Assembly: GCA_022826755.1 (NCBI GenBank)
Contig: JAJDUG010000003.1
Location: forward strand, 1 to 47,359
Direction of reading: 5' to 3'
Source of the DNA: Acidobacteriota bacterium
GTDB taxonomy: Bacteria > Acidobacteriota > Terriglobia > Versatilivoradales > Versatilivoraceae
Length of the DNA stretch: 47,359 nt
Notes under the pieces: generated by a model
The model's database searches: none
What the model was told of the DNA's origin: nothing
Seen by the model: only the letters and a program-made list of their open reading frames with translations
Part shown: one piece after another, positions 52-38,185 of the stretch
Layout of the letters: every line of letters begins with the position of its first letter
How positions within the stretch are numbered: position 1 is the first letter of the stretch
Program-made: the position numbers and the translations under genes

Positions 52-536
52 TTCCCCCCGCTGCCCCCCCCGGTTCGCCCCGCACCCGCGGGGGGGCTGG
101 GGCCCGACCCTGCCACTTTCGGTGCCCATTGACAACCGGCTGGGAATCCGGTTGGCATGTCTCGATCAAGGACCGGCCGACCAGACAGGGCACTGGCCCG
201 ATCATTGGGGAGCGAACGGCGCGCCGTTCGAGGCGGGGCAGCGAGGCCGGCACCGCACCGCGAAGTGCCGGGGAGCCAGCCTACCCAATGTAGGACATTG
301 GGGCTGGCGAGGGGCTCCCGTCCCTTCGAACCCCCGACCGGGGAGAGTTCTCCCCTGGCCCCTCCATCACCCCCGCCGCTCCCTTCTCCCTCTCCCATGA
401 CCGAGGCCTCGATGGCGCCAGAAGCGACAGCGACGAGGGTGATGCGGCCTTTCGGGGAAGCTTTCGACCACAACGGCGAGGGGGCCGCCCTCTGAGAGAA
501 AAGCGTTGGGGTGGTTGAAGTCACGCGCCACCCATG

Positions 537-22663: not shown

Positions 22664-23539
22664 TTAGTCTTCCTCGGGATTTGCCACGCCGGCTCTGTTG
22701 CGGATGGCGCTGATGGTGAATCCCGCCTGCTGCCGCACTCGATCGGACAGCATGGGATTTTCCGAGAGAAAGGGCTGGATGAGCGGCAGGTCTCGCATTT
22801 CCCCGATGAAGTACAAGGCCCGCAGGGCTTCCCACACCTGGTCCTCTTCAGGCGCCATGGAGACCAGCGGCTGACCCGCCGTTACCCCCGTCCCTTCCTC
22901 CGCCAGGCTCTCTTCCACAACCCCCGGCACGGCAGCGCGAACCTCCTCATGGGTCCCGGCATCCACCTGAATACGGGCCACCAGGGCTCCCGCGCGCAGG
23001 CTGTCCCCCTCGCTCCGCCGGAAGAGCAACTCCCCGGAAGCCGGAGCCACGATGCGCCGGCTGGCCAGCATGCCGCGCACCTCCTCCCGGCCGCTTGCCT
23101 CCCCGAAAGCCACCAGAGACAGGGCGGCGTTGCGTCGAACCAGCGGATCGGCATCCTGAAGCAGTCGGGTCAGACGGTCCCGGAATTCAGCGGCGGCAGG
23201 GTCCTGCCCCATCAACCAGGCGACCGTCATGCGCACTTCGGGGGTCGGGTGCCCCGCCAGTTTCCCTACGTCGGGGTACCAGGCAGCGACAGCGGCCGGA
23301 CCTGAATCGGTCAGCCGCTCCGAGAGCTGCACCAGGGCATGCTGGATCTTGCGCGGCTTGGCGGCAGGATCCAGATTCTTGCCGATCTCCTCGTCGCTGA
23401 GGGCGGTGCCGAACCAGGTCTGCTGCCAGAAGAGGAAGGGAACCAGTATCGCCAGAAACACGAAGGCCACGGCCAGGAGGTTGGCTCCCCATCCCGGGCG
23501 CCGCTTGGGGGTCTCGAGTTTGTCGCGTTGGTTCGACAT
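22664..23539 (-). CDS. membrane-anchored HEAT-repeat protein with inserted barrel-sandwich-like domain
   Basis: A 291-residue protein at the end of the oxidase cluster. One transmembrane segment lies at residues 19-38. Residues about 63-160 and 233-285 are HEAT-like helical repeats (for example HPTPEVRMTVAWLMGQ and DPLVRRNAALSLVAFG). Between them, residues about 161-230 look like a lipoyl/biotinyl-type barrel-sandwich fold: IVAPASGELLFRRSEGD, then AAVPGVVEESLAEEGTGVTAG. No modifiable lysine motif is seen. A HEAT scaffold split by such a domain is unusual. Its position suggests a role in oxidase assembly or stability, which is inference. An alternative ATG at 23551 adds four residues. Confidence 0.7.
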   Translation of the reverse strand: MSNQRDKLETPKRRPGWGANLLAVAFVFLAILVPFLFWQQTWFGTALSDEEIGKNLDPAAKPRKIQHALVQLSERLTDSGPAAVAAWYPDVGKLAGHPTPEVRMTVAWLMGQDPAAAEFRDRLTRLLQDADPLVRRNAALSLVAFGEASGREEVRGMLASRRIVAPASGELLFRRSEGDSLRAGALVARIQVDAGTHEEVRAAVPGVVEESLAEEGTGVTAGQPLVSMAPEEDQVWEALRALYFIGEMRDLPLIQPFLSENPMLSDRVRQQAGFTISAIRNRAGVANPEED

Positions 23540-23556
23540 TGGATCAGGCATGGAAC

Positions 23557-23970
23557 TCAATGATAGAGCATCCAGTAGATGACCACCCCGGTCACGGAAA
23601 CATACAGCCAGATTGGGAGAGTCCAGCGGGCCAACCGCTTGTGGGACTCGAACCGCTCCTTCCAGGCCCGATAGACCGTGACGGCGGCCAAGGGCAGGAC
23701 CGTGGCGGCCAGGACGATGTGGCTCAGCAAAATTGCATAGTAGACCGGTCGAACCCACCCTGTCCCGGTAAAGGCGACCGACCCGACCTGAAAGTGATAG
23801 ATGAGGTAGGAGATCAGAAAAAGGCTGGAGAATCCCAGCGCAGCCACCATGAACCGCTTGTGAATGGCGACACGCCGGCGACGGATCCAGTAGTACCCCC
23901 CCAGCAGGCAGCAGGCGGCGGCGGTATTGAGGCCGGCATTGAGGGCCGGGAGGCCGGCAGGTTCAATCAT
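23557..23970 (-). CDS. DUF420-type oxidase-associated membrane protein
   Basis: A 137-residue protein with about four transmembrane segments. The sequence features (LNTAAACCLLGGYYWIRRRRVAIHKRFMVAA, LSHIVLAATVLPLAAVTVYRAW, SHKRLARWTLPIWLYVSVTGVVIYWML) match the DUF420 family, often encoded beside cytochrome c oxidase genes and thought to help its assembly. The conserved His residues lie at membrane boundaries. The start at ATG 23970 overlaps the stop of the preceding gene by four bases (ATGA), indicating translational coupling. The longer open frame upstream is a shadow. Confidence 0.8.
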   Translation of the reverse strand: MIEPAGLPALNAGLNTAAACCLLGGYYWIRRRRVAIHKRFMVAALGFSSLFLISYLIYHFQVGSVAFTGTGWVRPVYYAILLSHIVLAATVLPLAAVTVYRAWKERFESHKRLARWTLPIWLYVSVTGVVIYWMLYH

Positions 23971-24224
23971 GCATCCCGACTGGAGGAGTCTTTCCGGAAA
24001 GTGTAGACCAGGATGATCCCCATGATGGCCACAGGAGGGGTCAACAGGAAGAGGATGGCCCGTCCGAGAGCGGAGATCGCCGGCTCCGGCTGAGCCTCGG
24101 CGGCTGTCTTGCACATGGCGCAGCCCTGGGCGGCCGCCTCCGGCTGCAAGAGGCAGACCAGCGCGACGGCCGCCGCCAGAAACGGCCAGATCTCTCGCAA
24201 ACGGCTGCTGCAGGTTTCAAGCAT
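23967..24224 (-). CDS. small CxxC membrane protein of the oxidase cluster
   Basis: An 85-residue protein that I cannot name. An N-terminal hydrophobic stretch (about 13-32) ending at AAAQG resembles a signal peptide, followed directly by CAMC at residues 35-38. A second membrane helix lies at about 54-76, with a short basic tail. The CxxC just outside the membrane would suit thiol redox chemistry or copper/haem handling. It sits between subunit IV and the DUF420 gene and overlaps the latter by four bases, so it belongs to the oxidase operon. GGGAGG precedes ATG 24224. Confidence 0.65.
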   Translation of the reverse strand: MLETCSSRLREIWPFLAAAVALVCLLQPEAAAQGCAMCKTAAEAQPEPAISALGRAILFLLTPPVAIMGIILVYTFRKDSSSRDA

Positions 24225-24242: not shown

Positions 24243-24821
24243 TCACGGGCGCAGTTCCAACAACCGGAAGCTGTCGGGGAAAAAGACGGCCAGAAGACAG
24301 ATGGTGACCACCATGGCGGGCATCAGCGTCCACACCAGGCTCCTCTTTTCGAACCGCAGGTGCATGAAGTAGGCGATGATCAGGGCGGCCTTGACCACCG
24401 AGAACCCCAGCAGCAGGATCAGCATGGTGGTCACGCCCAGCTTGATGTATGCCAGAAACACTTCCACCAGGGTGATGAGCACCAACCAGAACCAGACCGT
24501 GAAGACCAGCCGGTTTCCCATGGCACTGTGCGCGCCATGGTCCAGAACCAGGGGCACCTCCTTGCGAACCACGGGGTGAGCTTCGGGCTCCTCCGATTCC
24601 TTCCTCTTCGGGAGCAGCCGTTGCAGCAGCGGACTCAGTTCCTGGCTGCGCAAGGTCCAGTAGCCGTTGAGAAAGAACACCAGGGCCAGAACCATGCAGG
24701 AGATGGACAGGAACAGTCCGTCGAGTGTCATCACGTCCTGGGGCGTCTGGCGCAGCACCGCAAATACGCATCCGGCTCCCAAGAGCAGGTTCAAGGCTAG
24801 CAGCAGCAACGTCTCAACCAT
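24243..24821 (-). CDS. cytochrome c oxidase subunit IV-type protein
   Basis: A 192-residue membrane protein. The C-terminal half (from about residue 105) contains three membrane helices with the prokaryotic COX4 pattern (WFWLVLITLVEVFLAYIKL, then LGFSVVKAALIIAYFMHLRFE), the small non-catalytic oxidase subunit. The N-terminal half adds two more helices and a charged loop (PKRKESEEPEAH), making it about twice the usual length of roughly 100 residues, so it may be a fusion with another small membrane protein. GAGGAG precedes ATG 24821. Located directly after the two subunit III-like genes. Confidence 0.8.
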   Translation of the reverse strand: MVETLLLLALNLLLGAGCVFAVLRQTPQDVMTLDGLFLSISCMVLALVFFLNGYWTLRSQELSPLLQRLLPKRKESEEPEAHPVVRKEVPLVLDHGAHSAMGNRLVFTVWFWLVLITLVEVFLAYIKLGVTTMLILLLGFSVVKAALIIAYFMHLRFEKRSLVWTLMPAMVVTICLLAVFFPDSFRLLELRP

Positions 24822-24855
24822 CGGCGAATCTCCTCTTCTTCATTCCGCGCAGGAC

Positions 24856-25491
24856 TTACGCTCCCATGTCGACGGACAGCAGGTAGACCAGGGGAAACAC
24901 GAACATCCAGACCAGGTCCACGAAGTGCCAGTACAAGCCGCAGACCTCGACATGTTCGGAGTGAAACCGCTTCCTGGCGACCCCCCCGGCGATCGCCAGC
25001 AGATAGACCACTCCGGTAAACACGTGAAACATGTGCATGCCGGTGATCCCGAAGAAAGTGGCTCCGAACAGCGGCGTCCCCCAGGGATTCCCGGTCAGAG
25101 TCATTCCCTGGTTCATGAGCCCCATCCATTCCAGGCCGTGCAGCACGATGAAGGCGGCGCCGAAAAAGGCCGTCCACAGGATCCAGCGGATGGTCCATTT
25201 GCGATCGCCACGCTGGGCCGCATTGACGGCGAGCACCATGGTCAGGCTGCTCGACAGCAAAACGGCGGTCATCAACGTGGCAAAGACGACGGTCGGCCAG
25301 AAATGAAAGGGGGTCGGCCAGTCCGGGGTGGATATCCTGACATAGCTGTAGCCGAACAACAGGGCGGAGAAGGTCAGGGCATCGGAAACGATGAAGAGCC
25401 ACATCCCCAACTTGATGTGAGACACCGAGTAGGGCAGGGTTCCACCCCCCCACACCTGCAATCCCGTATTTTCCACACGAGCGTCTGCCAT
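24856..25491 (-). CDS. cytochrome c oxidase subunit III
   Basis: A 211-residue haem-copper oxidase subunit III with about five membrane helices. Family features include KLGMWLFIVSDALTFSALL, GMHMFHVFTGVVYLL and GLYWHFVDLVWMFVFPLVYLL, the last being the closing helix with its conserved Trp-His. Subunit III carries no cofactor and stabilises the catalytic core. It begins 6 bases after the previous gene, whose last codons supply its GGAGG. It is paired with a second subunit III-like gene just upstream. Confidence 0.92.
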   Translation of the reverse strand: MADARVENTGLQVWGGGTLPYSVSHIKLGMWLFIVSDALTFSALLFGYSYVRISTPDWPTPFHFWPTVVFATLMTAVLLSSSLTMVLAVNAAQRGDRKWTIRWILWTAFFGAAFIVLHGLEWMGLMNQGMTLTGNPWGTPLFGATFFGITGMHMFHVFTGVVYLLAIAGGVARKRFHSEHVEVCGLYWHFVDLVWMFVFPLVYLLSVDMGA

Positions 25492-25497
25492 CCGCGC

Positions 25498-26169
25498 TTA
25501 CCTCCAGAAAAACAGCAAGACCATTAGATAAATCCAGAGCCCATCCATGAAGTGCCAGTAGATCGCCGTGACGTTCAAGGAAGTTCCTGCCGGAACCCGA
25601 GCCGCCGAGATCCAGGCCCTGGCCGTCAGATAGACCAGCGCCGCCACGCCCCCCAGCAGATGCACTGCATGGACCCCCGTCAACAGGTAAAAGAAGGAGC
25701 TATGGGGATTGCCGCTCAGGTAGATGCCCTGATCGGCCAACAGCCCCCAAACCCAGAGCTGGCCTGCCAAAAAGGCCGCTCCCAGTACGCAGGTCAGGGT
25801 CATCCATCGCTTGACCTCGGTCGCAGCCCCGGCTCGCCGCGCCAACTCCAGGGTAAGGCTGCTCGCCAGCAGGATCACGGTATTGACCCAGACATAGGGC
25901 GGAGCCGCCATGGCCCGCCACTGGCTGTTGGTCCCCTGCCCCAGGATGTAGGCACTGCTGAAACCGATAAACATCATGGAAATAGAGGCCAGAGCCAGCC
26001 ACATCCCCAACTGATAGCTGTCGGGACCAAGGCGCCTGCCGCCGCCGTCTCCCCGCCGGCCGGGTCCCCCGTCCGATCCTGAGCCGCCTCCCGGTCCCCC
26101 CGATGCCGGAACTCGGTCTTCCCTGCCGGTTTGCGGCTTGACTTCAGGGGGTGCAATGGCCACGGGCAT
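25498..26169 (-). CDS. second haem-copper oxidase subunit III-like protein
   Basis: A 223-residue protein with five membrane helices and subunit III features: YQLGMWLALASISMMFIGFSSAYIL, GVHAVHLLGGVAALVYL and AIYWHFMDGLWIYLMVLLFFW. It differs from the next gene by a flexible N-terminus of about 50 residues rich in Gly, Pro, Arg and Asp, including GGPGGGSGSDGGPGRRG. Two subunit III-like genes in tandem occur in some non-proteobacterial oxidase clusters. GGAGG lies 7 bases before ATG 26169. The upstream spacer to coxA holds a palindromic repeat element. Confidence 0.88.
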   Translation of the reverse strand: MPVAIAPPEVKPQTGREDRVPASGGPGGGSGSDGGPGRRGDGGGRRLGPDSYQLGMWLALASISMMFIGFSSAYILGQGTNSQWRAMAAPPYVWVNTVILLASSLTLELARRAGAATEVKRWMTLTCVLGAAFLAGQLWVWGLLADQGIYLSGNPHSSFFYLLTGVHAVHLLGGVAALVYLTARAWISAARVPAGTSLNVTAIYWHFMDGLWIYLMVLLFFWR

Positions 26170-26218
26170 GGCCGGACCTCCACAGGCGACTCGACGGCCG
26201 CCCTATTTCGTAGATTCC

Positions 26219-26463
26219 AGCCCGCATTTCTCACCGGGGGGCGTGACTATGGCGCAGGAATTTTCCCCTCAGCGCGTGCTCGCGAGCGAAGAGCGTAGCG
26301 GTCACTACGGTCGAGCGAGCATGTGCGCGCTGAGGGGAAAAGGACAAGCCAGAGCGCGCCCAGCACCGTCTGTAACTGCATTCCCTCAAAACCGAGCTGA
26401 CACGGTATTAAAGATAATCGACCCATCATAGTCTATCCAGCGTCCCGGTGAGAAGTGCGGGCT
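26219..26463. repeat. palindromic repeat element A (inverted terminal repeats)
   Basis: A 245-base element bounded by AGCCCGCATTTCTCACCGGG (26219-26238) and its inverted partner at 26444-26463, one mismatch in 20. Inside lies a second, unrelated palindrome (26261-26341). The same arms bound a shorter element at 40099-40225. There is no open frame for a transposase, so it is MITE-like or REP-like. Its right arm runs into coxA and encodes the last residues of CoxA. Confidence 0.75.
26261..26341. repeat. long cruciform-forming palindrome inside element A
   Basis: TTTTCCCCTCAGCGCG (26261-26276) pairs perfectly with 26326-26341 over 16 bases. After a 4-base bulge, TGCTCGC (26277-26283) pairs with GCGAGCA (26315-26321). 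The remaining loop contains a further CGTAG/CTACG pairing. The resulting transcript would form a large branched hairpin between coxA and the subunit III-like genes. Confidence 0.75.
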
Positions 26464-28217
26464 ATAGGCGGATCGGTCTGCATCACGTAGTCCCGGGGCG
26501 CGTCCGGAACCCCATACTCGTAGGCCCCGTGGTTGACCACTAGCTCTCTCCCGCCAAAGTTGTCATGAGGCGGCGGAGAAGCGGTGATCCATTCCAGGGT
26601 GGTGGCCTCCCAGGGGTTCTCGGTGGCCTTCTTGCCCTTGAACATCCCCCAGACAAAATTCACCAGGAACAGGAGTTGGGCGGCCGCCGTCACGAAAGCC
26701 GCGAAGGTGACGAATTCCTGGTAGGGTTGGAGCGGTTCCATGAACTTGAACTCGGTCGACTCCGCGTAGCGCCGCAACTGCCCCATGATCCCCATCAAGT
26801 GCATGGGGATGAAGATGGCGTTCACTCCGATGAAGGTCAACCAGAAGTGCAGCTTGCCCAACCCCTCGTGAAGCATGCGCCCGAACATCTTGGGAAACCA
26901 GTAGTAGGTGGCCCCGAAAATTCCGAAGATGGCCGCCACTCCCATGATCATGTGGAAGTGGGCAACCGGGAAGTAGGTATCGTGAAGTTGCACGTCCACC
27001 GAGGTCTGCCCCAGGAACAGACCCGTGATGCCGCCCGAGACGAAGAGCGAGACGAAGCCGATGGCGAAGAGCATGGCGGTGGTGAAGCGGATCTTGCCGC
27101 CCCACAAGGTTCCCAGCCAGTTGAAGGTCTTGATGGCCGACGGCACGCCGATGGCCAGGGTCAGGATGGAGAACACCAGGGCGGAAAAGGGGCTCAAGCC
27201 GCTCACGAACATGTGGTGCCCCCAGACGAAGAAACCCAGCATCCCGATGGCGAAGATGGCCACCACCATGGCGTGGTAGCCGAAAATCGGCTTGCGGGCA
27301 AAGGTTGACAACAACTGGGAAGCCACGCCCATGCCCGGAAGGATGGCGATGTAGACTTCGGGGTGCCCGAAGAACCAGAAGAGGTGCTGCCACAAGATGG
27401 GAGAGCCGCCCGAGTTCTCGATGACCGTGTCGCTCACCACCAGGCCGGCCGGGATGAAGAAGCTGGTTCCACCAAGACGGTCGAGCAGCAGCAGGATTCC
27501 GGCGGCCAGCAGCACCGGGAAAGAAAGGAGGGCCAGAATCGCGGTGGTGAACCAGGTCCAGACGGTCAGCGGCATCTTCATCAGCGACATTCCCTTGGTC
27601 CGCATATTGAGAACGGTGGTGATGAAGTTGAGGGCCCCCAGCAGGGAGGCAACACAGAAGAGAGCGATGCTGATGATCCACAGGTCCTGACCCGATCCCA
27701 GCCCGGGTCCGGCCACCTCACCCAGGGCGCTGAGCGGGGCATAGGCCGTCCAGCCGGAAATCGGAGCCCCTCCCGCCACAAAGAAGGCCGCAAACATCAC
27801 CCCCATGCTCAGGAAGGTGACCCAGAAGGACAGCATGTTCAGCACCGGGAAGGCCATGTCATGGGCCCCGATCTGAATCGGCAGGAAGTAATTTCCGAAT
27901 CCGCCCTGAGGAGCCGTGGTCAACACGAAGAAGACCATGATGGTGCCGTGCATGGTCAGCATGGCCAGGTAGAACTCGGGCGACATCACCCCGCCTTCGA
28001 ACCCCACCGGGAAAATCTTCTCCAGCCAAGGCCAGGATTCGGCGGGCCAGGCCAACCGCAGCCGCATCAGCACGGAAAGCGCCAGACCGGTGAAAACCGC
28101 GACCAGCGCCAGAAAGTAATACTGGATCCCGATGATCTTATGGTCTGTGCTGAATACCCATTTGCGAATAAAGGTCGTCGGCGCCGGATGGACGGCAGGA
28201 TGGGCTGAATCAGACAT
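26433..28217 (-). CDS. coxA: cytochrome c oxidase subunit I (aa3-type)
   Basis: A 594-residue catalytic subunit that reduces oxygen to water and pumps protons. Twelve membrane helices are expected. Key motifs: GAHDMAFPVLN with the D-channel Asp; FWFFGHPEVYIAILPG with the CuB His, the channel Glu and the cross-linked Tyr; WGHHMF with the two further CuB His; GVPSAIKTFNW with the K-channel Lys; and DTYFPVAHFHMIMG with the haem His. This set defines an A1-type oxidase. ATG 28217 follows a GGGAGAG site. The final residues, ARTSHRDAG, are encoded by the arm of repeat element A, so the natural C-terminus has probably been replaced. Confidence 0.96.
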   Translation of the reverse strand: MSDSAHPAVHPAPTTFIRKWVFSTDHKIIGIQYYFLALVAVFTGLALSVLMRLRLAWPAESWPWLEKIFPVGFEGGVMSPEFYLAMLTMHGTIMVFFVLTTAPQGGFGNYFLPIQIGAHDMAFPVLNMLSFWVTFLSMGVMFAAFFVAGGAPISGWTAYAPLSALGEVAGPGLGSGQDLWIISIALFCVASLLGALNFITTVLNMRTKGMSLMKMPLTVWTWFTTAILALLSFPVLLAAGILLLLDRLGGTSFFIPAGLVVSDTVIENSGGSPILWQHLFWFFGHPEVYIAILPGMGVASQLLSTFARKPIFGYHAMVVAIFAIGMLGFFVWGHHMFVSGLSPFSALVFSILTLAIGVPSAIKTFNWLGTLWGGKIRFTTAMLFAIGFVSLFVSGGITGLFLGQTSVDVQLHDTYFPVAHFHMIMGVAAIFGIFGATYYWFPKMFGRMLHEGLGKLHFWLTFIGVNAIFIPMHLMGIMGQLRRYAESTEFKFMEPLQPYQEFVTFAAFVTAAAQLLFLVNFVWGMFKGKKATENPWEATTLEWITASPPPHDNFGGRELVVNHGAYEYGVPDAPRDYVMQTDPPIARTSHRDAG

Positions 28218-28262
28218 GAATACTCTCCCTTGTTGGCTGGGACCGCGGGCCGGTCATTCGGA

Positions 28263-29054
28263 TCAGAATTCGGCGCGCTCCTTCAGCCAGGCTTCGAATT
28301 CCTGGTCCGACATGACCATCAGGAACCCTTTCATCTTGTAATGCTGCAACCCGCACAACTCCGCGCAGGCAATTTCATATTCCCCCGTCTTCAGTGCCTT
28401 GAAATGCCCCGGGACGGCCAGCCCCGGAGTCGTATCCTGCTTGAAGCGCAGGGCCGGCACAAAGAAACTGTGGGTGACGTCCTTGGAACGAAGGGTGAGC
28501 CGGATATCGCGGTTCACCGGGACCGCCATGCGATTGAGGGTAACGACGTCGTCGTTGGACGCGGGATCGCGGGAGTCCAGTCCCACCGGGTTCAACTGGT
28601 CGTTGATCAGGCGGGTGACGGTCTTTCCGAATTTACCGTCGGGACCGGGATAGCGGAAGTTCCAGGCGAACTGCTGAGCCGTCACTTCCACCTGGACGGC
28701 ATCCTCGGGCATGTCCTCCAGGTGAAGATCGATCCAGACGCGCTGACCGATGATGGCAAGGGTCACAAAGGTGACCGCTGTGATCAGGACGGTCGCCACC
28801 TCGACCTTGGCGTTGCCGTGGGTATAGACGGCCCGCGCGCCGGACCGGTCGCGGTACCGCCACACGTAGTAGCCGAGAGCCACCTGAGCCAGAATAAAGC
28901 CGATGGCCACCACAATCAGGGTAAGGTTGAACTGGGCGTCCATGGCATCGCCGTGCTCGGAGACTTGCGGCGGAAACCAACCGAACTCCCCCGTAAACAG
29001 GACAACGGACGCCAGCACAATCGCCCAGATTAGAATTGCCAATGCAAGCGCCAT
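28263..29054 (-). CDS. coxB: cytochrome c oxidase subunit II (CuA protein)
   Basis: A 263-residue subunit that accepts electrons at the binuclear CuA site. Ligands are all present: H195, then C230, E232, C234, H238 and M241 in CAELCGLQHYKM. The N-terminal 110 residues hold about three membrane helices, one more than usual, the first possibly an uncleaved signal. There is no fused cytochrome c domain at the C-terminus, so an outside donor must deliver electrons. AAGGAGA precedes ATG 29054. It lies 45 bases upstream of coxA. Confidence 0.94.
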   Translation of the reverse strand: MALALAILIWAIVLASVVLFTGEFGWFPPQVSEHGDAMDAQFNLTLIVVAIGFILAQVALGYYVWRYRDRSGARAVYTHGNAKVEVATVLITAVTFVTLAIIGQRVWIDLHLEDMPEDAVQVEVTAQQFAWNFRYPGPDGKFGKTVTRLINDQLNPVGLDSRDPASNDDVVTLNRMAVPVNRDIRLTLRSKDVTHSFFVPALRFKQDTTPGLAVPGHFKALKTGEYEIACAELCGLQHYKMKGFLMVMSDQEFEAWLKERAEF

Positions 29055-29103: not shown

Positions 29104-30090
29104 TCAAGCTCCCACCTTGTCGAGCACCATCACCAGGTAGAGCAGCGGAAGGTAGATGACGGTGACGTGGAGCAACAGCCTGGCCTGCTGCTTGGTGCGC
29201 TGGGCGTAGGCCCGCCAGGCGTAATAGAGAAATCCGGCGCCCAGGCAAAGCGCCGCCGCCAGGTAGATCGAACCGGCCATCCCCAACCAGACCGGAGCCA
29301 GACTGGCGGGAACCAGGGCCAGCGAATAGCCCATGACCTGGCGGAACGCCCGCCTTCCCCCGGCATCGCCCCGCGGGAGCATCAGCAGGCCCGCCCTGGC
29401 GTAGTCTTCCCGATACATCCAGGCGATGGCGATAAAGTGGGGGAACTGCCACAGGAACAGGATGGCGAACAGTACCCAGGCTTCCAGCGAGAGAGAGGCG
29501 GCCGCCGTCCATCCGATCAGCACGGGAGCCGCTCCCGGGAACGCTCCCACAAAGGTACACCAAGCCGTCTTTCGCTTCAACGGTGTATAACCGCCCAGGT
29601 AGGCCAGGCAGGCCGTCAATCCGATCAGGGCTGCCAGCGGACTCACCCCCAAGACCAGGGTGGCGGTTCCGGCCAATGCGGAGACGACTCCCAGACCGTA
29701 GCCTTCCCACAGCGCCAGCCGGCCCGACGGCATCGGCCGCCGCACCGTCCTCCGCATCTTGGCGTCGTCGGCCCATTCCAGGCAGTGGTTGAGGGCGGCC
29801 GTACCGGCGGCCAACAGGCCGGTCCCCAACAGCACCCGCATCAGGCCCGGCAAGTCCAGCCGGGGAGAAGCCATGGCGAATCCCAGGCCGGCCGCTACCA
29901 GAACCAGGAAGGTCACCTCCGGCTTGGCCAACTCCAGGTAAGCCGCGGCCCGGGCTCCGCAGGCGGACAACACACTTCCGCGGCCGGCCGCCTTGGCCTT
30001 GGCGCGGTCGGGGCCGAGCAAAACCGGCAGCGCCGGAGCCTCTGCAACCGCCATTCCTCCGGCCTTAAGGATTTTTTCGGCGCTGCTCAT
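29104..30090 (-). CDS. ctaB: protohaem IX farnesyltransferase (haem O synthase)
   Basis: A 328-residue integral membrane prenyltransferase of the UbiA superfamily that attaches farnesyl to haem B, giving haem O. The first Asp-rich motif is NHCLEWADDAKMRRT (N-x3-D-x2-D type), with MPSGRLALW after it. The second site is around FLWQFPHFIAIAWMYREDYARAG. About nine membrane helices follow the roughly 45-residue cytoplasmic N-terminus. The frame is open further upstream, but that part is a shadow of ctaA. ATG 30090 overlaps the ctaA stop by four bases (ATGA), implying coupled translation of the two haem A pathway enzymes. Confidence 0.94.
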   Translation of the reverse strand: MSSAEKILKAGGMAVAEAPALPVLLGPDRAKAKAAGRGSVLSACGARAAAYLELAKPEVTFLVLVAAGLGFAMASPRLDLPGLMRVLLGTGLLAAGTAALNHCLEWADDAKMRRTVRRPMPSGRLALWEGYGLGVVSALAGTATLVLGVSPLAALIGLTACLAYLGGYTPLKRKTAWCTFVGAFPGAAPVLIGWTAAASLSLEAWVLFAILFLWQFPHFIAIAWMYREDYARAGLLMLPRGDAGGRRAFRQVMGYSLALVPASLAPVWLGMAGSIYLAAALCLGAGFLYYAWRAYAQRTKQQARLLLHVTVIYLPLLYLVMVLDKVGA

Positions 30091-31052
30091 GATTTCACCG
30101 GGATTGCCGGGAGGCGCGACTCGCCCCGGCGTCCTTCGGATCGGACACGAAAGGACTGCAAGGCCAGGATCACGCTGGCTGCCAGGATCAGGGCGCCCAC
30201 GCCGACATGGGCGGTGGTGACGCCCACCACCGAAGATTGCGGTTGTACGGCATCGGCAGTGGCCAGCCGCAACAGCCAGGAGGCCAGGCCCAGCAGGAGT
30301 TGAAGCGCCAGCAGGATCCCCAGCGAGGTTGCGGCGGCGGCCAGCCCCGAGGGGAGCCCCTCGGATCGGTACACCCGGGCGATCAACCAGCCGGCCAACA
30401 GCGTGACCAGGAGAGCCCCCAGCAGGTGCGGAAGGATCCCGGACTGGGTGTGGCGAAATATGGCGCCCAGCAAGAGCTGGAGGTAGATGGCTCCCGCGGT
30501 GGCCATGGCCAGCCGGTTGAGCGGAAGGCTGCAGCTCGCGTCTCTTCGCTGCCGCGTCCAGGCCGGAGAGGACAGCCAAGCCAGGCTGACCACCAGGCAA
30601 AAGAATGTCTGGGCCAGGCAGGCGTGCAGGACCGATATCGGGGCCGGCAGATACCACAGCACGGTGATGCCTCCCAGGATGCCCTGGGCGACCACCACCC
30701 CCAGAGCAATCCATCCCAGCTTGCGCACGGGCCCGCGGGTCTCTTTCTTCCACACCCAGACGGCCAGCGCGATGGTCAGCAGTCCTACAAAGGCAGCCAC
30801 CAGGCGGTGCCCGTGCTCGTAGCGGATATTCCCTTCCCAGGGCGGATTCAACGACCCGTAGGATAGGGGCCAATCCGGGACGGAAAGGCCCGCCTCGTTC
30901 CCCGTGACCAGGGCCCCGGCAACGATCAACAGAAAGGTGAAGCAGGCCGTGAGCACTGCAAAGTAGTGGTAACTTCCGGCACTACCGATGCTGGTCGGCA
31001 TTGAGTGGCTCATCAGGAATTCAGCGGGCCCGCGGGATGATGGATTCCACAC
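30087..31052 (-). CDS. ctaA: haem A synthase CtaA
   Basis: A 321-residue membrane enzyme that oxidises the C8 methyl of haem O to give haem A. It has eight membrane helices in two homologous halves. The conserved His are visible: EHGHRLVAAFVG and HACLAQTFF in the first half, FRHTQSGILPHLLGA and TTAHVGVGA in the second. ALVTGNEAGLSVPDWPLSYG is the family's first-loop signature. The start is uncertain: GTG 31052 has AGAGGG at good spacing and is used here, while ATG 31013 would remove 13 residues but has no Shine-Dalgarno. Coupled to ctaB downstream. Confidence 0.92.
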   Translation of the reverse strand: MWNPSSRGPAEFLMSHSMPTSIGSAGSYHYFAVLTACFTFLLIVAGALVTGNEAGLSVPDWPLSYGSLNPPWEGNIRYEHGHRLVAAFVGLLTIALAVWVWKKETRGPVRKLGWIALGVVVAQGILGGITVLWYLPAPISVLHACLAQTFFCLVVSLAWLSSPAWTRQRRDASCSLPLNRLAMATAGAIYLQLLLGAIFRHTQSGILPHLLGALLVTLLAGWLIARVYRSEGLPSGLAAAATSLGILLALQLLLGLASWLLRLATADAVQPQSSVVGVTTAHVGVGALILAASVILALQSFRVRSEGRRGESRLPAIPVKS

Positions 31053-31095: not shown

Positions 31096-31899
31096 TCAGG
31101 AAGCCTGCTTCAGAGTGAAATCCACCGATTTGGACTCGCTGGCAGCCAGAGTGACCTTGTGGGTGGTAACGCCCTCTTTCAGGAACTCGTGCCAGATCCC
31201 GATGGTGTATTCGCCGGGAGGCAATCCCGTGATTTCGAACGAGCCATCCGCGCCAGTCACCGAGAAGAACGGGTGCGGCAAAACGCCGATATAGCTCTTC
31301 ATCCAGGGGTGGACGTTGCACTTGACCGGGATCATGACCTCTTCGCGAGGAAACTTTTTCATCTTCGGCGGCACGTTGGGAGCCATGGATTCGTTCCACT
31401 CGCGATTGTTCCTGGGGGTCGGATGGACGTTGTGGGTGGTGGGATCGCTGTTCAGGATTCTGACCGGCTGATTGACCTGGACGCCCAGCATGTGGGGCAG
31501 GTAGATGCACCCCTTCTGATCCAGGATTGCGGGTTCGGTGGGCGTCTCGAACCTCATGGCCTCCAAGCCCTCCTTGACATACACGAAGACGTGCCTCAGC
31601 GTCTTGTTGTCGTTGGGGACCACCACTTCCGAGTAGACGGGCGCGGTGTGCAGGCCGGCGCAAGCCGGTTCCGCGTCCATGGCCAGCCGCCTGGCCCTGG
31701 GCAGGTCGCCTTCGAAGTAGACCTTTCCGTTGACCGTAGCCGCGGTGGCGGGATCCACCCTGGTGACCATTGCCGGAGCCTCGGCCCCGTCCACGTCATC
31801 CAGATCTTCATCGTCGATGTCGACGCTGCCGCAGCCTCCTGCAAAGAGAGCCGCCAGCAGCGCAACAGGCAAGCACAGGTAACTCTTCAAACGCATCAT
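31096..31899 (-). CDS. lipoprotein with cupredoxin-like copper site and carboxypeptidase-regulatory domain
   Basis: A 267-residue lipoprotein. LFAGGC gives a lipobox with Cys23, and an acidic linker follows. Residues about 135-210 carry H156 and H159 (THNVH), then C194, H197 and M200 (CNVHPWM), an arrangement like the ligand loops of cupredoxins. Residues about 212-265 (GSFEITGLPPGEYTIGIWHE) match the carboxypeptidase regulatory-like beta sandwich. It lies between the octaheme cytochrome and ctaA. A copper electron carrier in the periplasm, linking complex III to oxidase, is a reasonable guess; a copper chaperone for CuA is the alternative. Neither is proven by sequence. Confidence 0.75.
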   Translation of the reverse strand: MMRLKSYLCLPVALLAALFAGGCGSVDIDDEDLDDVDGAEAPAMVTRVDPATAATVNGKVYFEGDLPRARRLAMDAEPACAGLHTAPVYSEVVVPNDNKTLRHVFVYVKEGLEAMRFETPTEPAILDQKGCIYLPHMLGVQVNQPVRILNSDPTTHNVHPTPRNNREWNESMAPNVPPKMKKFPREEVMIPVKCNVHPWMKSYIGVLPHPFFSVTGADGSFEITGLPPGEYTIGIWHEFLKEGVTTHKVTLAASESKSVDFTLKQAS

Positions 31900-32025
31900 A
31901 AAGACCTCTCTGAGCTAATGATAAAAGGTTGGGGCCGAGGAAAAACCAGGGAACCGGCCACCCCGTCACCCGATGATTAATGTAACACTTCCGGCCCTCG
32001 AATTCGAGGGCGGTCCCGGCCACTG

Positions 32026-35000
32026 CTAACGGCTGGCCACGCTGGTTGCCGCGGCCGGCATTCGCGACATCAGTCGCCGCTGTTCCTGAGGCGTCAACTG
32101 GAACATGTAGCGCACCAGCAGTTCGGCGTGGTCCTCGGGGTAGTCCCTGAAGGCGGGAGGCAGCGACCCGGCAAAGACCCAGCGCTCGCCGTCTCTCTGG
32201 AACAACCCGGAGGGCATGGCCGTGCCTGGAGCGATCATTTCCGGCGCCACCATCCACCGTTCGGTCCAGCCGGGCTTCAGCCTTTCCTTGGCCAACAGGA
32301 AATTGGGCGCGGTGGCGTTGCGGTCGTGAGCCGGGTTCCCGGTGGCGTGACACCTCAGGCAGGGCGCCGCCTTGGAGGTGAAGAGTTGCCGGGCCAGTTC
32401 GAGCTCCCGGTTGCTGAGCGGTTCCAGCCGGGTTGGAATGTAGGGCCGATCCTGAGCCGCCAGGGCTTCGAAGAAGCGAACGATCTTCTGAATCTGGCTG
32501 TCGGAAAAACGGAAGGTGGGCATGCGGGCGTGGAGATAGCCGCGCACGCCGTTGCGTTCGGTGCGCTCGGCGTCCATGGCCGGGTTCCTGAGAAAACGGG
32601 CCAGCCAATCCGGGTCCACCCGAGCGCCCTCGCCGACCAGAGTCGGCGGAAGCTGCTCCTTCCAGTCCGGGTCCTGATAGCGGGCCATCCCTGAAAGGTC
32701 GGACTGCTGTCCGGGCCGCACCTGGTGGCAGCCCATGCAGTTGTAGCGCTTCACCAGCCACCAGCCTTCCCGAATATCCTGCCCCCTGTCGCCGGGAACG
32801 TAGAAGAAATGTTCCGGCAGCGTGGAGTCGACGCTCCCCAGCAGAAAGGTGGTCAAGGCCGTGATTTCCTCGTCGCTCAGCCTGAAATTCGGCATCCGGA
32901 GCTTTTCCAGGGGGGTCTTGATCTTGCCCTGGTCGAAGATGGCCGGGTCTTTCAGCTTGCGCTCGAAGAAGCCCTTGTGGTTGTACCAGCCGTCATGCTT
33001 GGCCTCGTGGGTCAGCAAGGCGAAATCCAGCCGCTCGATGGGTTTGCTGCCCTCGCGGGTCAACTCCGTTCCGATGCGCCCTTCCTCCTCGAAGCCGGCG
33101 ATTTCGTGGCAACCGGCGCAGCCGAAATGCTTGACCCACATGGAACCTTCGCTCCTGAGGGCCGGATCGTCCAGGTAGTCGGCCTCGGGATAGGAGGCGT
33201 CGGCCTGTTTCAGCGTCACGAGGTAGCTGGCGATGTCACGGGTTTCCGCCAGGCTGAGCCGCAGGCTGGGCATGACCGAAAGCGGCTGGCGCTCCTGGGG
33301 ATTGTGGATCCAGGGGACCAGGTAGTCGTAGTGCACCTTCTCCCCCACCCGCGACAGGTTGGCCGCGAACGAGCTTCCCTGGGCCGCATCCCCTTCGCCC
33401 ACCGCGTGGCAGCCCATGCAGCCCCGGGTCTCGAACAGTTCCTTGCCCCGAACGGCGTTCCCCCGAGGCTGGCTGGGCAATTCCCCTTCGACCCCCGTCT
33501 GCCAGACAAAGGCGGCAATGGCGCGGCGCTGCCCCTCGTCCAGGCGAAAGGCCGGCATCTTGGTGGAAGGCCGGTAGGCATGCGGGTTCTCCAGCCAGGC
33601 CGGGATCCACTCCTTGCGCATCTTGAAGCGGACTTCCTTCAGGCTGGGCCCGATGTTTTTCTGTTCCATCTGCAGGTCCGCGGAACGCACCTCCAGACGC
33701 TCCATTTCGTGGTCGAGGTTGCTGATCTGCTGCTTGAGCTCGTCCGCGCGGGCATAGAACCGCTGGGCCTCCGCGTTGTCCTGGGCGTTGTCGCCGGCCA
33801 GAACGCTCTGCTCGATCTCCTTGCCCATCTCCTTCCGGTCCTCCACCAACGCGTGAATGGAGGACTGGACCCCGGTCAGCGCCTCGGCCTCGGTGTCGAA
33901 GCCCTCGAAACGGTGGCAGCCCACGCAACCCTCGACGTAGTAGATCTCCTTCCCCCGATTCAGGACATCGGCATGATCGAGCACCAGGTCCTGAGCGTGG
34001 CACTGGTGGCAGCCCGCCTCGAAATTCTCCCGGTAGAACAGCGGCCACAACCAGTACTTGTGGCGCCCGTGGCCCTTGCGCACACTGGTGGTCGCCCTTC
34101 CGTTGCCGTTATGGCAGGTGGAGCAACCGAACTGCTCCGGATCGTGCAGGTCCAGCAGGGCGGGATTGGGGTGGCTGACAAATACTTCTTCGCCCCGCAT
34201 GTCGGCCTTGGTCAGCACCACCGGCTCCCTGATGCCCAGGTGACAGGACTCGCACCGGTCCACCAGGTCTACCTCGGCCACGTGGATCTGCCGGATCCCC
34301 AGCTCGAAGTTGCGCATCTTTGCCCGAAGCCCCCGCACTTGTGAGGCGGTCAAACCGGTGAGGCGGTCGCCAAGCAGGGTATCCCTCTCCCCTCGCAACT
34401 CGCTGGAGGGCTTCACCAGTTCCGCCCGTTGCGCTCCCAGCTCGGCCCGCCTGACCTGCAAGCGGTTGAACTCCGCTTCCAACTGGTCGAAATTGAAGCG
34501 TTCCTCCCGCTCCACCACTTCCCCGGAACCATTGGGGGACGCAAGCCTCAGGGTCATCTCCCGGGCCTTGATGGCATCGATCTGCCGCTGCAGCGCGTCT
34601 CTTTGACTCTGGCTGGTGGAGGTTTCGATCTGGTAGATGAGGGCCGCGATCTCGCTGCGGGTGATGGCGAAGGGCTCGGTAATGACGCTCAACCGCCTGC
34701 CGACGATCTGGTTGGTCTCGCGGTCCAGGTCGGAGATCCGGGGGGCGATCGACTCCTCCGCCTTGGTGACCGCCTCACTCAGCTTCCGGTACTCCGCGGA
34801 TTGGCGGACGGCCTGCTCGGCCCGGGCCTGGGTCGGCTGGATCCGCTTCAGGTGCCGGCTGTACAGACTGACGAAGCGCTTCTGGTAGTCCTTCCAGGGT
34901 CTGAGGCCGTAGGTCTCGTCGTACAACGCCCACAGGAGAGAGGCGATCATCAGCAGAGATGAGATCAAAAGGATGCGACCGAGGGATCGGTTGAGGACCG

Positions 35001-35031
35001 GATCGTCTCCAACCGGGGGTTTCTTCGGCAC
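32026..35031 (-). CDS. membrane-anchored octaheme c-type cytochrome of the bc complex
   Basis: A 1001-residue protein with one N-terminal membrane helix (about 17-37) and a periplasmic body. Eight CxxCH haem sites start at C260, C303, C341, C369, C538, C638, C765 and C891. The first four are clustered like a tetraheme module. The last four are spread about 100-170 residues apart, each followed by class I cytochrome c features such as MPAFRLDE, MPSLRLS, MPNFRLSD and MPTFRFSD, whose Met could be the sixth ligand. Residues about 50-240 and 385-470 are coiled coil. It directly follows the split cytochrome b genes, where cytochrome c1 would normally lie, so it probably replaces it. I know of no closely matching named family. 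Confidence 0.88.
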   Translation of the reverse strand: MPKKPPVGDDPVLNRSLGRILLISSLLMIASLLWALYDETYGLRPWKDYQKRFVSLYSRHLKRIQPTQARAEQAVRQSAEYRKLSEAVTKAEESIAPRISDLDRETNQIVGRRLSVITEPFAITRSEIAALIYQIETSTSQSQRDALQRQIDAIKAREMTLRLASPNGSGEVVEREERFNFDQLEAEFNRLQVRRAELGAQRAELVKPSSELRGERDTLLGDRLTGLTASQVRGLRAKMRNFELGIRQIHVAEVDLVDRCESCHLGIREPVVLTKADMRGEEVFVSHPNPALLDLHDPEQFGCSTCHNGNGRATTSVRKGHGRHKYWLWPLFYRENFEAGCHQCHAQDLVLDHADVLNRGKEIYYVEGCVGCHRFEGFDTEAEALTGVQSSIHALVEDRKEMGKEIEQSVLAGDNAQDNAEAQRFYARADELKQQISNLDHEMERLEVRSADLQMEQKNIGPSLKEVRFKMRKEWIPAWLENPHAYRPSTKMPAFRLDEGQRRAIAAFVWQTGVEGELPSQPRGNAVRGKELFETRGCMGCHAVGEGDAAQGSSFAANLSRVGEKVHYDYLVPWIHNPQERQPLSVMPSLRLSLAETRDIASYLVTLKQADASYPEADYLDDPALRSEGSMWVKHFGCAGCHEIAGFEEEGRIGTELTREGSKPIERLDFALLTHEAKHDGWYNHKGFFERKLKDPAIFDQGKIKTPLEKLRMPNFRLSDEEITALTTFLLGSVDSTLPEHFFYVPGDRGQDIREGWWLVKRYNCMGCHQVRPGQQSDLSGMARYQDPDWKEQLPPTLVGEGARVDPDWLARFLRNPAMDAERTERNGVRGYLHARMPTFRFSDSQIQKIVRFFEALAAQDRPYIPTRLEPLSNRELELARQLFTSKAAPCLRCHATGNPAHDRNATAPNFLLAKERLKPGWTERWMVAPEMIAPGTAMPSGLFQRDGERWVFAGSLPPAFRDYPEDHAELLVRYMFQLTPQEQRRLMSRMPAAATSVASR

Positions 35032-35052
35032 CGATTTCTCCTTAGATAAATA

Positions 35053-35204
35053 GTGATCAGTGGCTAGTGGTCAGTGGTCAGTTCCAAAAACAGAAACTCT
35101 GGCCCCTTTTCTCCAACTCTGAAAGATTTGACTCCCTTGTCAACAGTTACGGTCTCTCACGCAGGTCATCCACTGATCACTGGCCACCAGCCACTGACCA
35201 CTAG
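35053..35204. repeat. inverted GTGGTCAGTGG-type repeats between cytochrome b and octaheme genes
   Basis: CTAGTGGTCAGTGG (35064-35077) is perfectly inverted as CCACTGACCACTAG (35191-35204), and GTGATCAGTGG (35053-35063) as CCACTGATCAC (35170-35180). The right arm contains the stop codon of the cytochrome b C-terminal gene. Another copy of AGTGGTCAGTGG lies at 47095-47106. This is a dispersed non-coding repeat, distinct from element A. Confidence 0.7.
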
Positions 35205-36136
35205 ATGTTGAACCAGGGAGTGACCCACACGTACTTGATCCGAAACAGCAGTCTCGCCACCATCTTGGCCGGCAAGAGCATCATGGTGACCAGGAAAAAT
35301 TGCAGGAGCACGTATTGAATCAAGCTCATGCGGTTGTAGATTTTCCGGTTGAACGCATTCCAGGTAAACAGCTTGTGCACTCCCAGGGCGGTCACCAGGG
35401 CAAACAGGCCGACGACTGCCGCCCCGAAGAGGCTCTTGCCCAGCATGCTGGTGATGCCGAACATGTCCGGCAGATCCCGATTGGCCTCGAAGATCAGCTT
35501 GTTGTGGTCCCAGGTCTGACCCGGCCAGAACCAGATCCACCCCGGACCCCGAATGAAAGTGCCGATGACCACCATCGACAACCACAACACGATAAAGCCG
35601 AAGAAGAAGGCCCAAATGGCGAACTTCCGCTGCTTGTAAGTGTAATAGCCGTTCCCGAGCGGGTTGGTGTCCATGTAGGGAATCACCATGAGCCCCACCA
35701 GAATCAGGGTCGGGAGCACCACGCCGGCCATCCAGGGATCGAAATAGACCAGCATCTCCTGCAGCCCCAGAAAGTACCAGGGCGCCTTTGCCGGGTTCAT
35801 GGTCAGGGAGGGATTGGCCGGCTCTTCCAGAGGCGCGTCCAGGGTTATCGACCACACCATCAGAATGAAGGTGACGATGATGGCGACCAGGAACTCCATG
35901 CGCAACAGGTAGGGCCAGACCTGAACTTCCCGAGCCCAGCCCGGTTTCCAGGGCTGCGTCTTGCGGTGGTGGGTCTTGGCCATCTCCGGGTCGGCTTCCA
36001 GCCTGTCGATCAGCCGGTCGTTGGCGAACGCCTGCCGGAGGCCGTACCAGGTGTAGAAAGGGATGACCAGGATGAGCAGGACGATCGGAACATTGTCGGG
36101 CAGGGTGGTGATTTCCCAGAGCTGAACCCAATCCAC
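35201..36136 (-). CDS. cytochrome b C-terminal (subunit IV-like) protein
   Basis: A 311-residue membrane protein forming the second half of a split cytochrome b in the quinol:cytochrome c reductase. NPAKAPWYFLGLQEML contains APWYF (118-122) where the quinol-site PEWY is usual. More helices follow than in plant-type subunit IV, including FAIWAFFFGFIVLWLSMVV and a C-terminal pair. The start is GTG 36136, preceded by AAGGAGG at 6-base spacing; the frame extends to a TTG at 36202 but without a ribosome site. It lies between the b6-like gene and the octaheme cytochrome. Confidence 0.88.
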   Translation of the reverse strand: MDWVQLWEITTLPDNVPIVLLILVIPFYTWYGLRQAFANDRLIDRLEADPEMAKTHHRKTQPWKPGWAREVQVWPYLLRMEFLVAIIVTFILMVWSITLDAPLEEPANPSLTMNPAKAPWYFLGLQEMLVYFDPWMAGVVLPTLILVGLMVIPYMDTNPLGNGYYTYKQRKFAIWAFFFGFIVLWLSMVVIGTFIRGPGWIWFWPGQTWDHNKLIFEANRDLPDMFGITSMLGKSLFGAAVVGLFALVTALGVHKLFTWNAFNRKIYNRMSLIQYVLLQFFLVTMMLLPAKMVARLLFRIKYVWVTPWFNI

Positions 36137-36209
36137 TGATTTCCTCCTTATCCTTTTCCGGGTCGTTCCCGGTCGAAGGGCCTCGAACGATGGCCCCGCC
36201 AACGAACGC

Positions 36210-37115
36210 TCAGAACCTTCGCGGCTCTTTGATTTCGGATTCCAGCATCACGGGAGCCGGTCCCGAGATGCCGCCGTCCTTGCGGACCCTCCAGAAGTGA
36301 ACGGCCATGAATATCCCCGCGATCAGGGGAATGGCGATGCAGTGCCAGATGTAGGCGCGCAAGAGCGCGTTGGAGTCCACGATGGAGCCCCCCAGCAGAG
36401 CAAAGCGAACGTCGTTGAAGGCGGTCATGCCGAACTCCGGTCCCAACGGACCCTCGTGCCCCAGCAAAGGCGTCGCCCGCGCCATGTTGGTGCCCACGGT
36501 GACTGCCCAGAAGCCGAGCTGATCGTCCGGCAGCAGGTATCCGGTGAAGGACAGCAGCATGGTGAGCAGCATCAGAATGACGCCCACCATCCAGTTGAAC
36601 TCCCGCGGCTTCTTGTAGGAGCCCGTCAGGAAGACCCTGAACATGTGCAGCCAGACCGTGATGATCATCAAGTGGGCGGCCCAGCGATGCATGTTTCTCA
36701 AGAGCTTCCCGAAGGGCACGTCGTGTTCCAGGTAGAGAATGTCCCGGAAGGCCTGGACCTTGGTGGGGTGGTAGTAGAACATCAGCAGGACGCCGGTGAA
36801 GGTCAACACGATGAACAGATAGAAGGTGATCCCTCCCATGCCCCAGGTGTAATTGTAGGCGACCGCGTCGCGGTTGATCTTGGCGGGGTGCAGGTGCAGG
36901 AAGACGTTGGACAGGATCCCCAGCGCGCGGTTGCGCGGCTTCTCGTCGTGGGTTACCCGGAAGATCGACTTGTAGAGTTGGGTCTTCTGCGGCTTCTTGA
37001 GCGACTGGACATCGTCGAGAGCCTTGTCCTTGAGACCCTTCACCTCCTTCAGGACACCGCCGATCAAGGCCGTCGCCTTGCCCGCCGGTTTCTGCTCTTT
37101 CAGATCATCTGCCAT
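36210..37115 (-). CDS. cytochrome b6-like protein (N-terminal cytochrome b)
   Basis: A 301-residue membrane protein carrying the two b haems. The first His pair is in HRWAAHLMIITVWLH, the His 14 positions apart; the second pair is in WHCIAIPLIAGIFMAVHF, 15 apart, the spacing of b6-type proteins. SFTGYLLPDDQLGFWAV is the family quinol-site helix. A cytoplasmic N-terminal extension of about 90 residues, Lys-rich, precedes the first helix. ATG 37115 follows GAGGAG; the upstream open frame overlaps the Rieske gene and is not used. With the Rieske and subunit IV-like neighbours it makes up the redox core of a b6c-like complex. Confidence 0.93.
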   Translation of the reverse strand: MADDLKEQKPAGKATALIGGVLKEVKGLKDKALDDVQSLKKPQKTQLYKSIFRVTHDEKPRNRALGILSNVFLHLHPAKINRDAVAYNYTWGMGGITFYLFIVLTFTGVLLMFYYHPTKVQAFRDILYLEHDVPFGKLLRNMHRWAAHLMIITVWLHMFRVFLTGSYKKPREFNWMVGVILMLLTMLLSFTGYLLPDDQLGFWAVTVGTNMARATPLLGHEGPLGPEFGMTAFNDVRFALLGGSIVDSNALLRAYIWHCIAIPLIAGIFMAVHFWRVRKDGGISGPAPVMLESEIKEPRRF

Positions 37116-37171
37116 GGAAAAACTCCTCGCATAAATGCTTGCAATTCCCGTTACGCAGGATCGGCTGCCGA

Positions 37172-37807
37172 CTACAACTGGAGGAACGCCCCCGGGTCCC
37201 GGAACTCCGACCGCATTCCCTTGGGCCACTCGTAGAGGACGCTGGTGTCCACCACGATCTGCCCTTCGGCGTCGAGCTCAACCTTGGCGCGGTCCAGGGG
37301 CCGGGGAGCCGGGCCTTCGAAATTGATTCCCTCGCTGTCGTAACCGCTTCCGTGGCAGGGACACTTGAACTTGTTCTCGCTGGGCTTCCAGTCCGGAGTG
37401 CATCCCAGGTGCGTGCAGCGGGCGTAGACCACAAAGAGCCCCTCGGCATCGCGCACCACCCAGATCCGCTGTTTCTGGAACTTGGTATCCACGCCATAGC
37501 CGAAGTCGGAGGGGTACCCAATGCGGAACAGCGTCTTGGGTTCGAACAGGGTCCTGGGAAAGAAGAAGCGCAGGAACATGAAGAAATTGATTCCCAGGAA
37601 CCCCGTAACCAGGGCTTGCACGGTGCGACGGCGGCGCTTGGCGGGATCGACCGACTCGCCTCTCCCGAACAAATTCAGGATCCTCGCTACCAACCCTGCC
37701 TTGGGTTTTTCCTGAACCTTGGCGGGCGGCTTCCGCCTGGATGGCGCGGCTCTTGGAGTCGCACCGGTTCGGGGCTGCTTGGGACGGTCACTTTCAGTAT
37801 TTGGCAT
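37172..37807 (-). CDS. Rieske iron-sulfur protein
   Basis: A 211-residue membrane-anchored 2Fe-2S protein taking one electron from quinol in the bc complex. The cluster ligands are in CTHLGC and CPCHGSGYDSEG, both complete. One membrane helix (RTVQALVTGFLGINFFMFLRFFF) is preceded by a basic, Pro-rich, probably cytoplasmic N-terminus of about 60 residues, with several Arg before the helix as in Tat-type Rieske export. ATG 37807 has GGAGGAG just upstream. It is the first gene of the long respiratory transcript. Confidence 0.93.
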   Translation of the reverse strand: MPNTESDRPKQPRTGATPRAAPSRRKPPAKVQEKPKAGLVARILNLFGRGESVDPAKRRRRTVQALVTGFLGINFFMFLRFFFPRTLFEPKTLFRIGYPSDFGYGVDTKFQKQRIWVVRDAEGLFVVYARCTHLGCTPDWKPSENKFKCPCHGSGYDSEGINFEGPAPRPLDRAKVELDAEGQIVVDTSVLYEWPKGMRSEFRDPGAFLQL

Positions 37808-38185
37808 CCACTCCTCCAAGGGTTCCGAGGGGTGACTGGCGGAGTCTGGTTGAATTTTGATTGCTAGGCAAAATGTTGGGCGGCGAGCACGAAGGTGCGC
37901 CGACTACGGAAGTATCCAGATTTTAGTCTAAAAACGCGGATTGTCAATAGCCTGGTGACAGGGATTCTCTGTGGAACCTCCATTGGAGATGGTAACCTTG
38001 TTTCTGAAACAGGACACCGCAGCCGCCGGCGCCCTCAAATTTTTCTTGCCCCGTCCTTTTCCATTCAAAGTATAATACCTCGCACACGTGACCAGTCAGC
38101 AATGATCCCCCATCCAGAGTGCTACTGAGCAAGTGGACCGGCACCCGGGCTTCCGTCCGGGCCTGCCTGCAACCGCGAGAAACTG
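37808..38185. other. divergent spacer upstream of respiratory cluster
   Basis: No gene is seen. This region separates the minus-strand respiratory genes from the plus-strand zinc-ribbon gene and should hold both promoters. A plus-strand -10/-35 candidate is listed separately. For the minus strand the area around 37915-37945 is AT-rich and is the likeliest promoter site, though no clear hexamer pair can be assigned. Confidence 0.4.
38046..38076 (+). promoter_or_regulatory. candidate sigma70 promoter for zinc-ribbon gene
   Basis: TTGCCC (38046-38051) and a perfect TATAAT (38071-38076) are separated by 19 bases, slightly long. The start codon follows about 110 bases later. Confidence 0.45.

Follow-up and report, generated by a model that had tools for sequence, protein, structure and literature searches.

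CtaM (DUF420; PF04238) is a late oxidase assembly factor of the Bacillota that is required for an active oxidase in Bacillus and Staphylococcus and that acts after heme insertion, possibly for CuB, according to excerpts of a review in which the role of CtaM is left unassigned and further, as yet unidentified bacterial oxidase assembly proteins are expected (PMC9145763). In excerpts of two other papers, CtaM is proposed to export copper for the oxidase and Sco-DUF420 fusions in planctomycetes are recorded (PMC13344008), and DUF420 is regarded as a possible forerunner of CtaA (PMC8239418). The protein family described here shares its locus with CtaM, its experimentally known neighbor, and co-occurs with it. 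CtaM differs in being a membrane protein with four or five helices, and the excerpted accounts from the Bacillota mention no HEAT partner.

The folds within the new protein are known. Its helical part has the fold of the HEAT, alphaRep, and PP2A scaffold solenoids but is broken by a complete beta domain and is likely anchored in the membrane. That beta domain shares the fold of biotin carboxyl carrier and lipoyl domains (PF00364), from which it differs in lacking a conserved hairpin lysine, in its putative periplasmic location, and in being set within a solenoid. HlyD and RND adaptors also combine a barrel-sandwich domain with an N-terminal membrane anchor, and they carry an alpha-hairpin inserted between the barrel half-motifs; the protein described here has no such hairpin, and HEAT repeats replace the adaptors' other domains.

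What is new is a candidate oxidase biogenesis protein of unusual build. Many Acidobacteriota carry a membrane-anchored, barrel-interrupted HEAT protein at the end of their oxidase genes, and it probably helps to build the oxidase. No description of this family was found in the open-access literature, and the full-length family is unnamed in Pfam and NCBIfam. It is a concrete, widespread, CtaM-tied candidate in genomes such as the one analyzed here, which has neither Cox11 nor Surf1 matches and no convincing Sco.

A HEAT-barrel gene closes a respiratory gene cluster

The DNA analyzed, a contig of 47,359 nucleotides that we call the window, comes from a 4.6-Mb genome whose close relatives in a named collection are Acidobacteriota metagenome assemblies. 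Its respiratory genes run in the order Rieske, cytochrome b, multiheme cytochrome c, cupredoxin-like, CtaA, CtaB, COX2, COX1, COX3, COX3, COX4-like, and DUF420, with the HEAT-barrel gene last, and the flanking oxidase genes are of the aa3/caa3 type. The open frame and its position closing the oxidase block, after the oxidase genes and DUF420, were found as reported in the preliminary description.

22664..23539, minus strand: HEAT/barrel-sandwich membrane protein gene, open frame of 291 aa
23411..23491, minus strand: predicted transmembrane helix, residues 17-43, ending in PFLFWxxTWFG (residues 34-44; AlphaFold2 model)
23069..23395, minus strand: first HEAT block, residues 49-157 (Pfam, AlphaFold2 model, structure overlays)
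22853..23059, minus strand: barrel-sandwich insert of biotinyl/lipoyl fold, residues 161-229, lacking a modifiable lysine (model, overlays, alignment)
22682..22846, minus strand: second HEAT block, residues 232-286, continuing the first solenoid (model, overlays; abuts the first block in barrel-less orthologs)
23557..24114, minus strand: DUF420 (CtaM-like) gene, directly upstream of the HEAT-barrel gene (PF04238, E 2.3e-44)
24243..29054, minus strand: COX4-like, two COX3, COX1, and COX2 oxidase subunit genes (Pfam and NCBIfam)
29104..31052, minus strand: CtaB (heme O synthase) and CtaA (heme A synthase) genes (Pfam and NCBIfam)
31096..37819, minus strand: rest of the respiratory cluster (cupredoxin-like, multidomain cytochrome c, cytochrome b, and Rieske genes)
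31099-31899, minus strand: cupredoxin-like protein
32026-35031, minus strand: protein of 1001 residues that carries several cytochrome c domains, encoded between the cytochrome b and oxidase genes
36213-37229, minus strand: cytochrome b
37175-37819, minus strand: Rieske protein

The true start of the HEAT-barrel gene may be the in-frame ATG at position 23551, which lies five bases past the DUF420 stop. The product of 31099-31899, for which Pfam gave only a subthreshold CarboxypepD_reg match, we take to be cupredoxin-like from its copper-ligand motif. The two COX3-type genes are neighbors within one oxidase operon (window 24856-26169), as in several relatives, and many relatives likewise have the gene for the 1001-residue multiheme c protein next to the one for the cupredoxin-like protein.

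Predicted architecture

AlphaFold2, with eight aligned sequences as input, gave a model with a mean pLDDT of 86.2 (five models at 86.2, 85.6, 82.7, 82.5, and 65.6) and with pLDDT of about 88-96 per ten-residue block across the HEAT and barrel parts. The model consists of a helix at residues 17-43, which is likely a membrane anchor, helices at 49-156, strands at 161-229, and helices at 232-286. In Pfam searches of the window protein, HEAT_2 (E 4.2e-11, residues 94-159) and HEAT matched above the cut-off; Biotin_lipoyl (E 6.7e-4, residues 175-227) and HlyD_3 (E 1e-3, residues 200-236) fell just under it when this protein was searched alone. Among 38 family members at E ≤ 0.01, HEAT_2 matched 38, Biotin_lipoyl 23, and HlyD_3 18.

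Structure overlays point the same way. The alphaRep/HEAT chain 6fsq aligns on either side of the insert (Z 13.9, 153 residues, 3.5 Å, range 47..286), and HEAT, ARM, and alphaRep chains overlay across it at Z 13-14, a range in which Z near 13 can reflect mere solenoid likeness. With both a profile match and a solenoid fold, the helical part belongs with the HEAT-repeat proteins. A biotin carrier protein is the nearest solved structure to the insert (Foldseek E 8.9e-5), which superposes on the biotin carrier protein 2d5d at Z 13.1 over 69 residues and 1.3 Å. Predicted alone, the insert took the same fold in one of five models only (87.1 versus 44.5 and less), and this model matched biotin carrier proteins at Z 11-12 and HlyD, EmrA, and MacA slightly lower. 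The best 60 of 178 matches of the family profile to the PDB were repeat, carrier-domain, and adaptor proteins, with no full-length relative among the matches listed. HEAT blocks around a barrel-type segment had been suggested before, with structure prediction as the check; the HEAT_2 match and a complete barrel-sandwich at 161-229 in a confident AlphaFold2 model bear this out.

Distribution and conservation of the family

Clear members were present in 40 of 101 related genomes and 24 of 396 Acidobacteriota genomes sampled from across the phylum, together 60 distinct genomes. Among the relatives 47 genomes matched, seven of which were left out (G014, G028, G059, G071, G092, G096, and G100; best E 8e-9 to 1e-3). 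In the phylum search 323 genomes matched and the 24 with a best E of ≤1.2e-55 were kept, the next best being 2.9e-10. A scan of bacterial and archaeal species used patterns from one protein and so finds close relatives only, and a plasmid search gave no match. Two very distant relatives from another family (L076:7968-8681 and L077:6982-8436; E 8e-9 and 2e-7) align over HEAT and barrel; no oxidase genes were recognized near either, and an esterase gene lies directly after the one in L076.

Identity to the window protein falls as low as 36% in a 38-row alignment in which 25 columns are invariant. Over 55 rows (leaving out L042, L076, L077, and L108-L110), mean entropy was lowest in the PFLFWxxTWFG motif at the helix end (0.96 bits) and rose to 1.55 in the first HEAT block, 1.79 in the second, and 2.21 in the barrel; W38, W42, F43, G44, and L47 are identical in at least 90% of these rows. 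Against three close relatives, dN/dS over residues 17-285 was 0.20-0.31, with small dS values, and dS to a fourth, more distant relative was saturated. By region, values against three close relatives were 0.12-0.26 in the first HEAT block but 0.5-1.1 in the barrel, each from few changes. Retention of the architecture, or of its HEAT part, in 60 genomes and the dN/dS over residues 17-285 rule out chance or an annotation artifact.

Conserved linkage to DUF420/CtaM

In 46 of the 60 genomes a DUF420 gene is found upstream on the same strand at a distance of at most 3.3 kb, in 33 of them at no more than 500 bases, and the median gap is 197 bases; for an unrelated gene, rough chance expectation of such adjacency is about 0.0006 per genome. 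CtaA, CtaB, and COX genes are also present at many family loci, and in some relatives Sco and an ABC-2 exporter stand in the same gene row. These labels come from custom, noncurated profiles, and COX4 labels, from a short model, were not used as evidence. The other 14 genomes comprise six with other respiratory genes alongside (cupredoxin-like, multiheme c, or CtaB at L052, L053, L075, L108, L109, and L127, with L109 on the other strand), two at contig ends (G044 and G062), and six unlinked, in which no oxidase or bc gene was recognized nearby on the same strand (G012, G025, G049, G405, G413, and G470). G405 and G413 have a Sco-like gene on the opposite strand, and G396 was counted as unlinked for DUF420 since its DUF420 position was unlisted. 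The link to oxidase genes that the preliminary description had proposed to check in other genomes is thus conserved.

Co-occurrence is one-sided. DUF420 is present in every one of the 24 family genomes from the phylum sample, compared with 217 of 396 overall (one-sided Fisher P = 2.9e-7, ignoring relatedness), but 193 of the 217 DUF420 genomes are without a HEAT-barrel protein. Therefore, CtaM has no general need of it.

The barrel is a dispensable, probably cofactor-free module

Across 61 alignment rows, no lysine position is shared by more than half, and the hairpin that bears the biotin or lipoyl lysine elsewhere is free to vary in length from a few residues to more than thirty. The insert therefore has the barrel-sandwich fold of a carrier domain but not its modifiable lysine, as noted from the single sequence, and a biotin or lipoyl carrier is ruled out.

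Three orthologs of about 208-230 residues, two from one genus (G317 and G396) and one from another family (G234), have no barrel, and their first HEAT block passes straight into the second. These loci (L108:1502-2140, L109:5361-6050, and L110:8510-9133) keep the membrane helix and the HEAT blocks, and the G396 ortholog (L109) retains what is probably left of the last barrel strand. In a tree inferred from the HEAT columns alone, leaving out L042, which is cut by a contig end, the G317 and G396 proteins group with a barrel-bearing protein (support 100/99). By parsimony the barrel changed at least twice, which is most simply explained by two losses, whose independence is not proven because the placement of L110 (G234) is poorly supported. 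The two very distant relatives, used as the outgroup, align over the barrel too, which suggests that the barrel is probably ancestral.

The barrel is thus a faster-evolving, dispensable module, and the conserved core consists of the membrane-end motif and the HEAT repeats. The emphasis that had been placed on the barrel holds for its presence but not for its importance: it is the fastest-evolving part, and its absence from three orthologs rules it out as the defining part. Any function common to the whole family must therefore lie in the HEAT solenoid and in the motif at the membrane end. The natural barrel-less versions would allow the protein's two halves to be tested separately.

A proposed scaffold for oxidase assembly and alternative readings

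Net charge is more positive before the helix than after it in 52 of 61 rows, which by the charge rule would place the N terminus in the cytoplasm and the solenoid, probably, in the periplasm. The simplest role for a solenoid that is anchored in the membrane, probably faces the periplasm, and is encoded with CtaM would be as a scaffold in late oxidase assembly. We therefore propose, with confidence evenly divided for and against, that the protein is a membrane-anchored scaffold for the biogenesis of the Acidobacteriota aa3/caa3-type cytochrome c oxidase. It would work with CtaM in late, copper-center assembly: the helix-end motif would dock on CtaM or COX1 as its partner in the membrane; the solenoid would hold COX2/COX1, or a periplasmic copper-bringing protein, while CuB or CuA fills; and the barrel may serve as an optional cofactor-free module for protein docking. 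The protein itself is unlikely to carry copper, since none of its cysteines is conserved and, among its histidines, only H67 is near-invariant (57 of 61 rows); a direct copper carrier is accordingly disfavored. The conserved linkage to oxidase biogenesis genes speaks for an assembly role, as do the presence of DUF420 in every family genome of the phylum sample, the late action of CtaM, the Sco and ABC-2 exporter genes in the same row in some relatives, and the small number of other assembly proteins visible in the window genome. Against it stand the many DUF420 genomes without the protein, the six unlinked genomes, and the six with cupredoxin-like, multiheme c, or CtaB neighbors, which equally fit a subunit or electron-carrier partner. 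The assembly factor first suggested for this gene is the best, though putative, reading, ahead of a structural subunit.

Such a subunit is the main rival and fits nearly as well. Here the protein would belong to the oxidase, or to a bc-oxidase supercomplex, as a supernumerary structural subunit, its solenoid and barrel clamping together the periplasmic faces of COX2, cytochrome c domains, and the cupredoxin. The window cluster spans Rieske, cytochrome b, multiheme c, and cupredoxin-like genes through to the oxidase; in L052, L053, L108, and L127 the HEAT-barrel gene comes after multiheme c and cupredoxin-like genes instead of DUF420; in L109 it lies beside them on the other strand. Conservation of the transmembrane-end motif is likewise as expected of a subunit interface. 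By far the commonest neighbor is nevertheless an assembly gene, many DUF420 genomes do without the protein, and loss of the barrel in three orthologs would be unusual, if possible, for a subunit. On balance we regard this reading as the less likely of the two.

Other assembly factors bear on the scaffold reading and on a special case of it, in which the protein replaces the copper chaperone Sco, or makes it dispensable, in Sco-less lineages. Only one COX1 is present in the window genome, in which neither Cox11 nor Surf1 was matched and Sco gave just two matches, both weak, in frames that we take from their CxxC motif to be thioredoxin-type proteins; few other assembly proteins are therefore visible in it. 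The HEAT-barrel protein itself matches none of Sco (PF02630), Cox11 (PF04442), Surf1 (PF02104), or CtaM (PF04238) up to E 1 in Pfam and NCBIfam. Across the 101 relatives, strong Sco matches (PF02630, E ≤ 1e-14) occur in 12 of 40 family genomes and in 44 of 61 without the family (Fisher P = 3.9e-5). Counted by uniform genera, 15 have the protein without strong Sco, 9 both, 22 Sco only, and 7 neither (P = 0.006). The contrast weakens to P = 0.04 at the stricter E ≤ 1e-18, and it stems mostly from whole families, two of which (f3 and f5) are nearly all Sco positive and HEAT-barrel negative, so relatedness alone may cause it. L044, L046, and L048 moreover carry Sco, DUF420, and HEAT-barrel genes in one row, and the protein has no conserved cysteine. 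Replacement of Sco is improbable, and the scarcity of Sco alongside the protein is a lead, not a result. A broader form, in which CtaM and the HEAT-barrel protein as a pair fill the oxidase copper sites and make Sco, Cox11, and Surf1 dispensable in lineages like that of the window, seems rather improbable as well.

A membrane fusion-like periplasmic adaptor for a nearby ABC-2 exporter is very improbable and is disfavored: several relatives (e.g., L044, L047, L049, and L050) have genes for an ABC ATPase and an ABC2 permease upstream and the barrel also matches EmrA, MacA, and HlyD (5c21, Z 10.5, 75 residues, 1.9 Å), but the window cluster has no ABC gene, the alpha-hairpin position holds a turn (between strands 186-193 and 196-201 in the model) or a variable loop, short in most rows, and the three barrel-less orthologs retain the HEAT part.

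Among neighboring proteins, Pfam gave no match for those of L118, L066, and L077, for one of two in L120, and for two of three in L076. In L120 (4384-4953) and L118 (5154-5756 and 5799-6344), proteins of ~180-200 residues with no Pfam match are encoded between DUF420 and the HEAT-barrel gene and may be further oxidase-linked unknowns.
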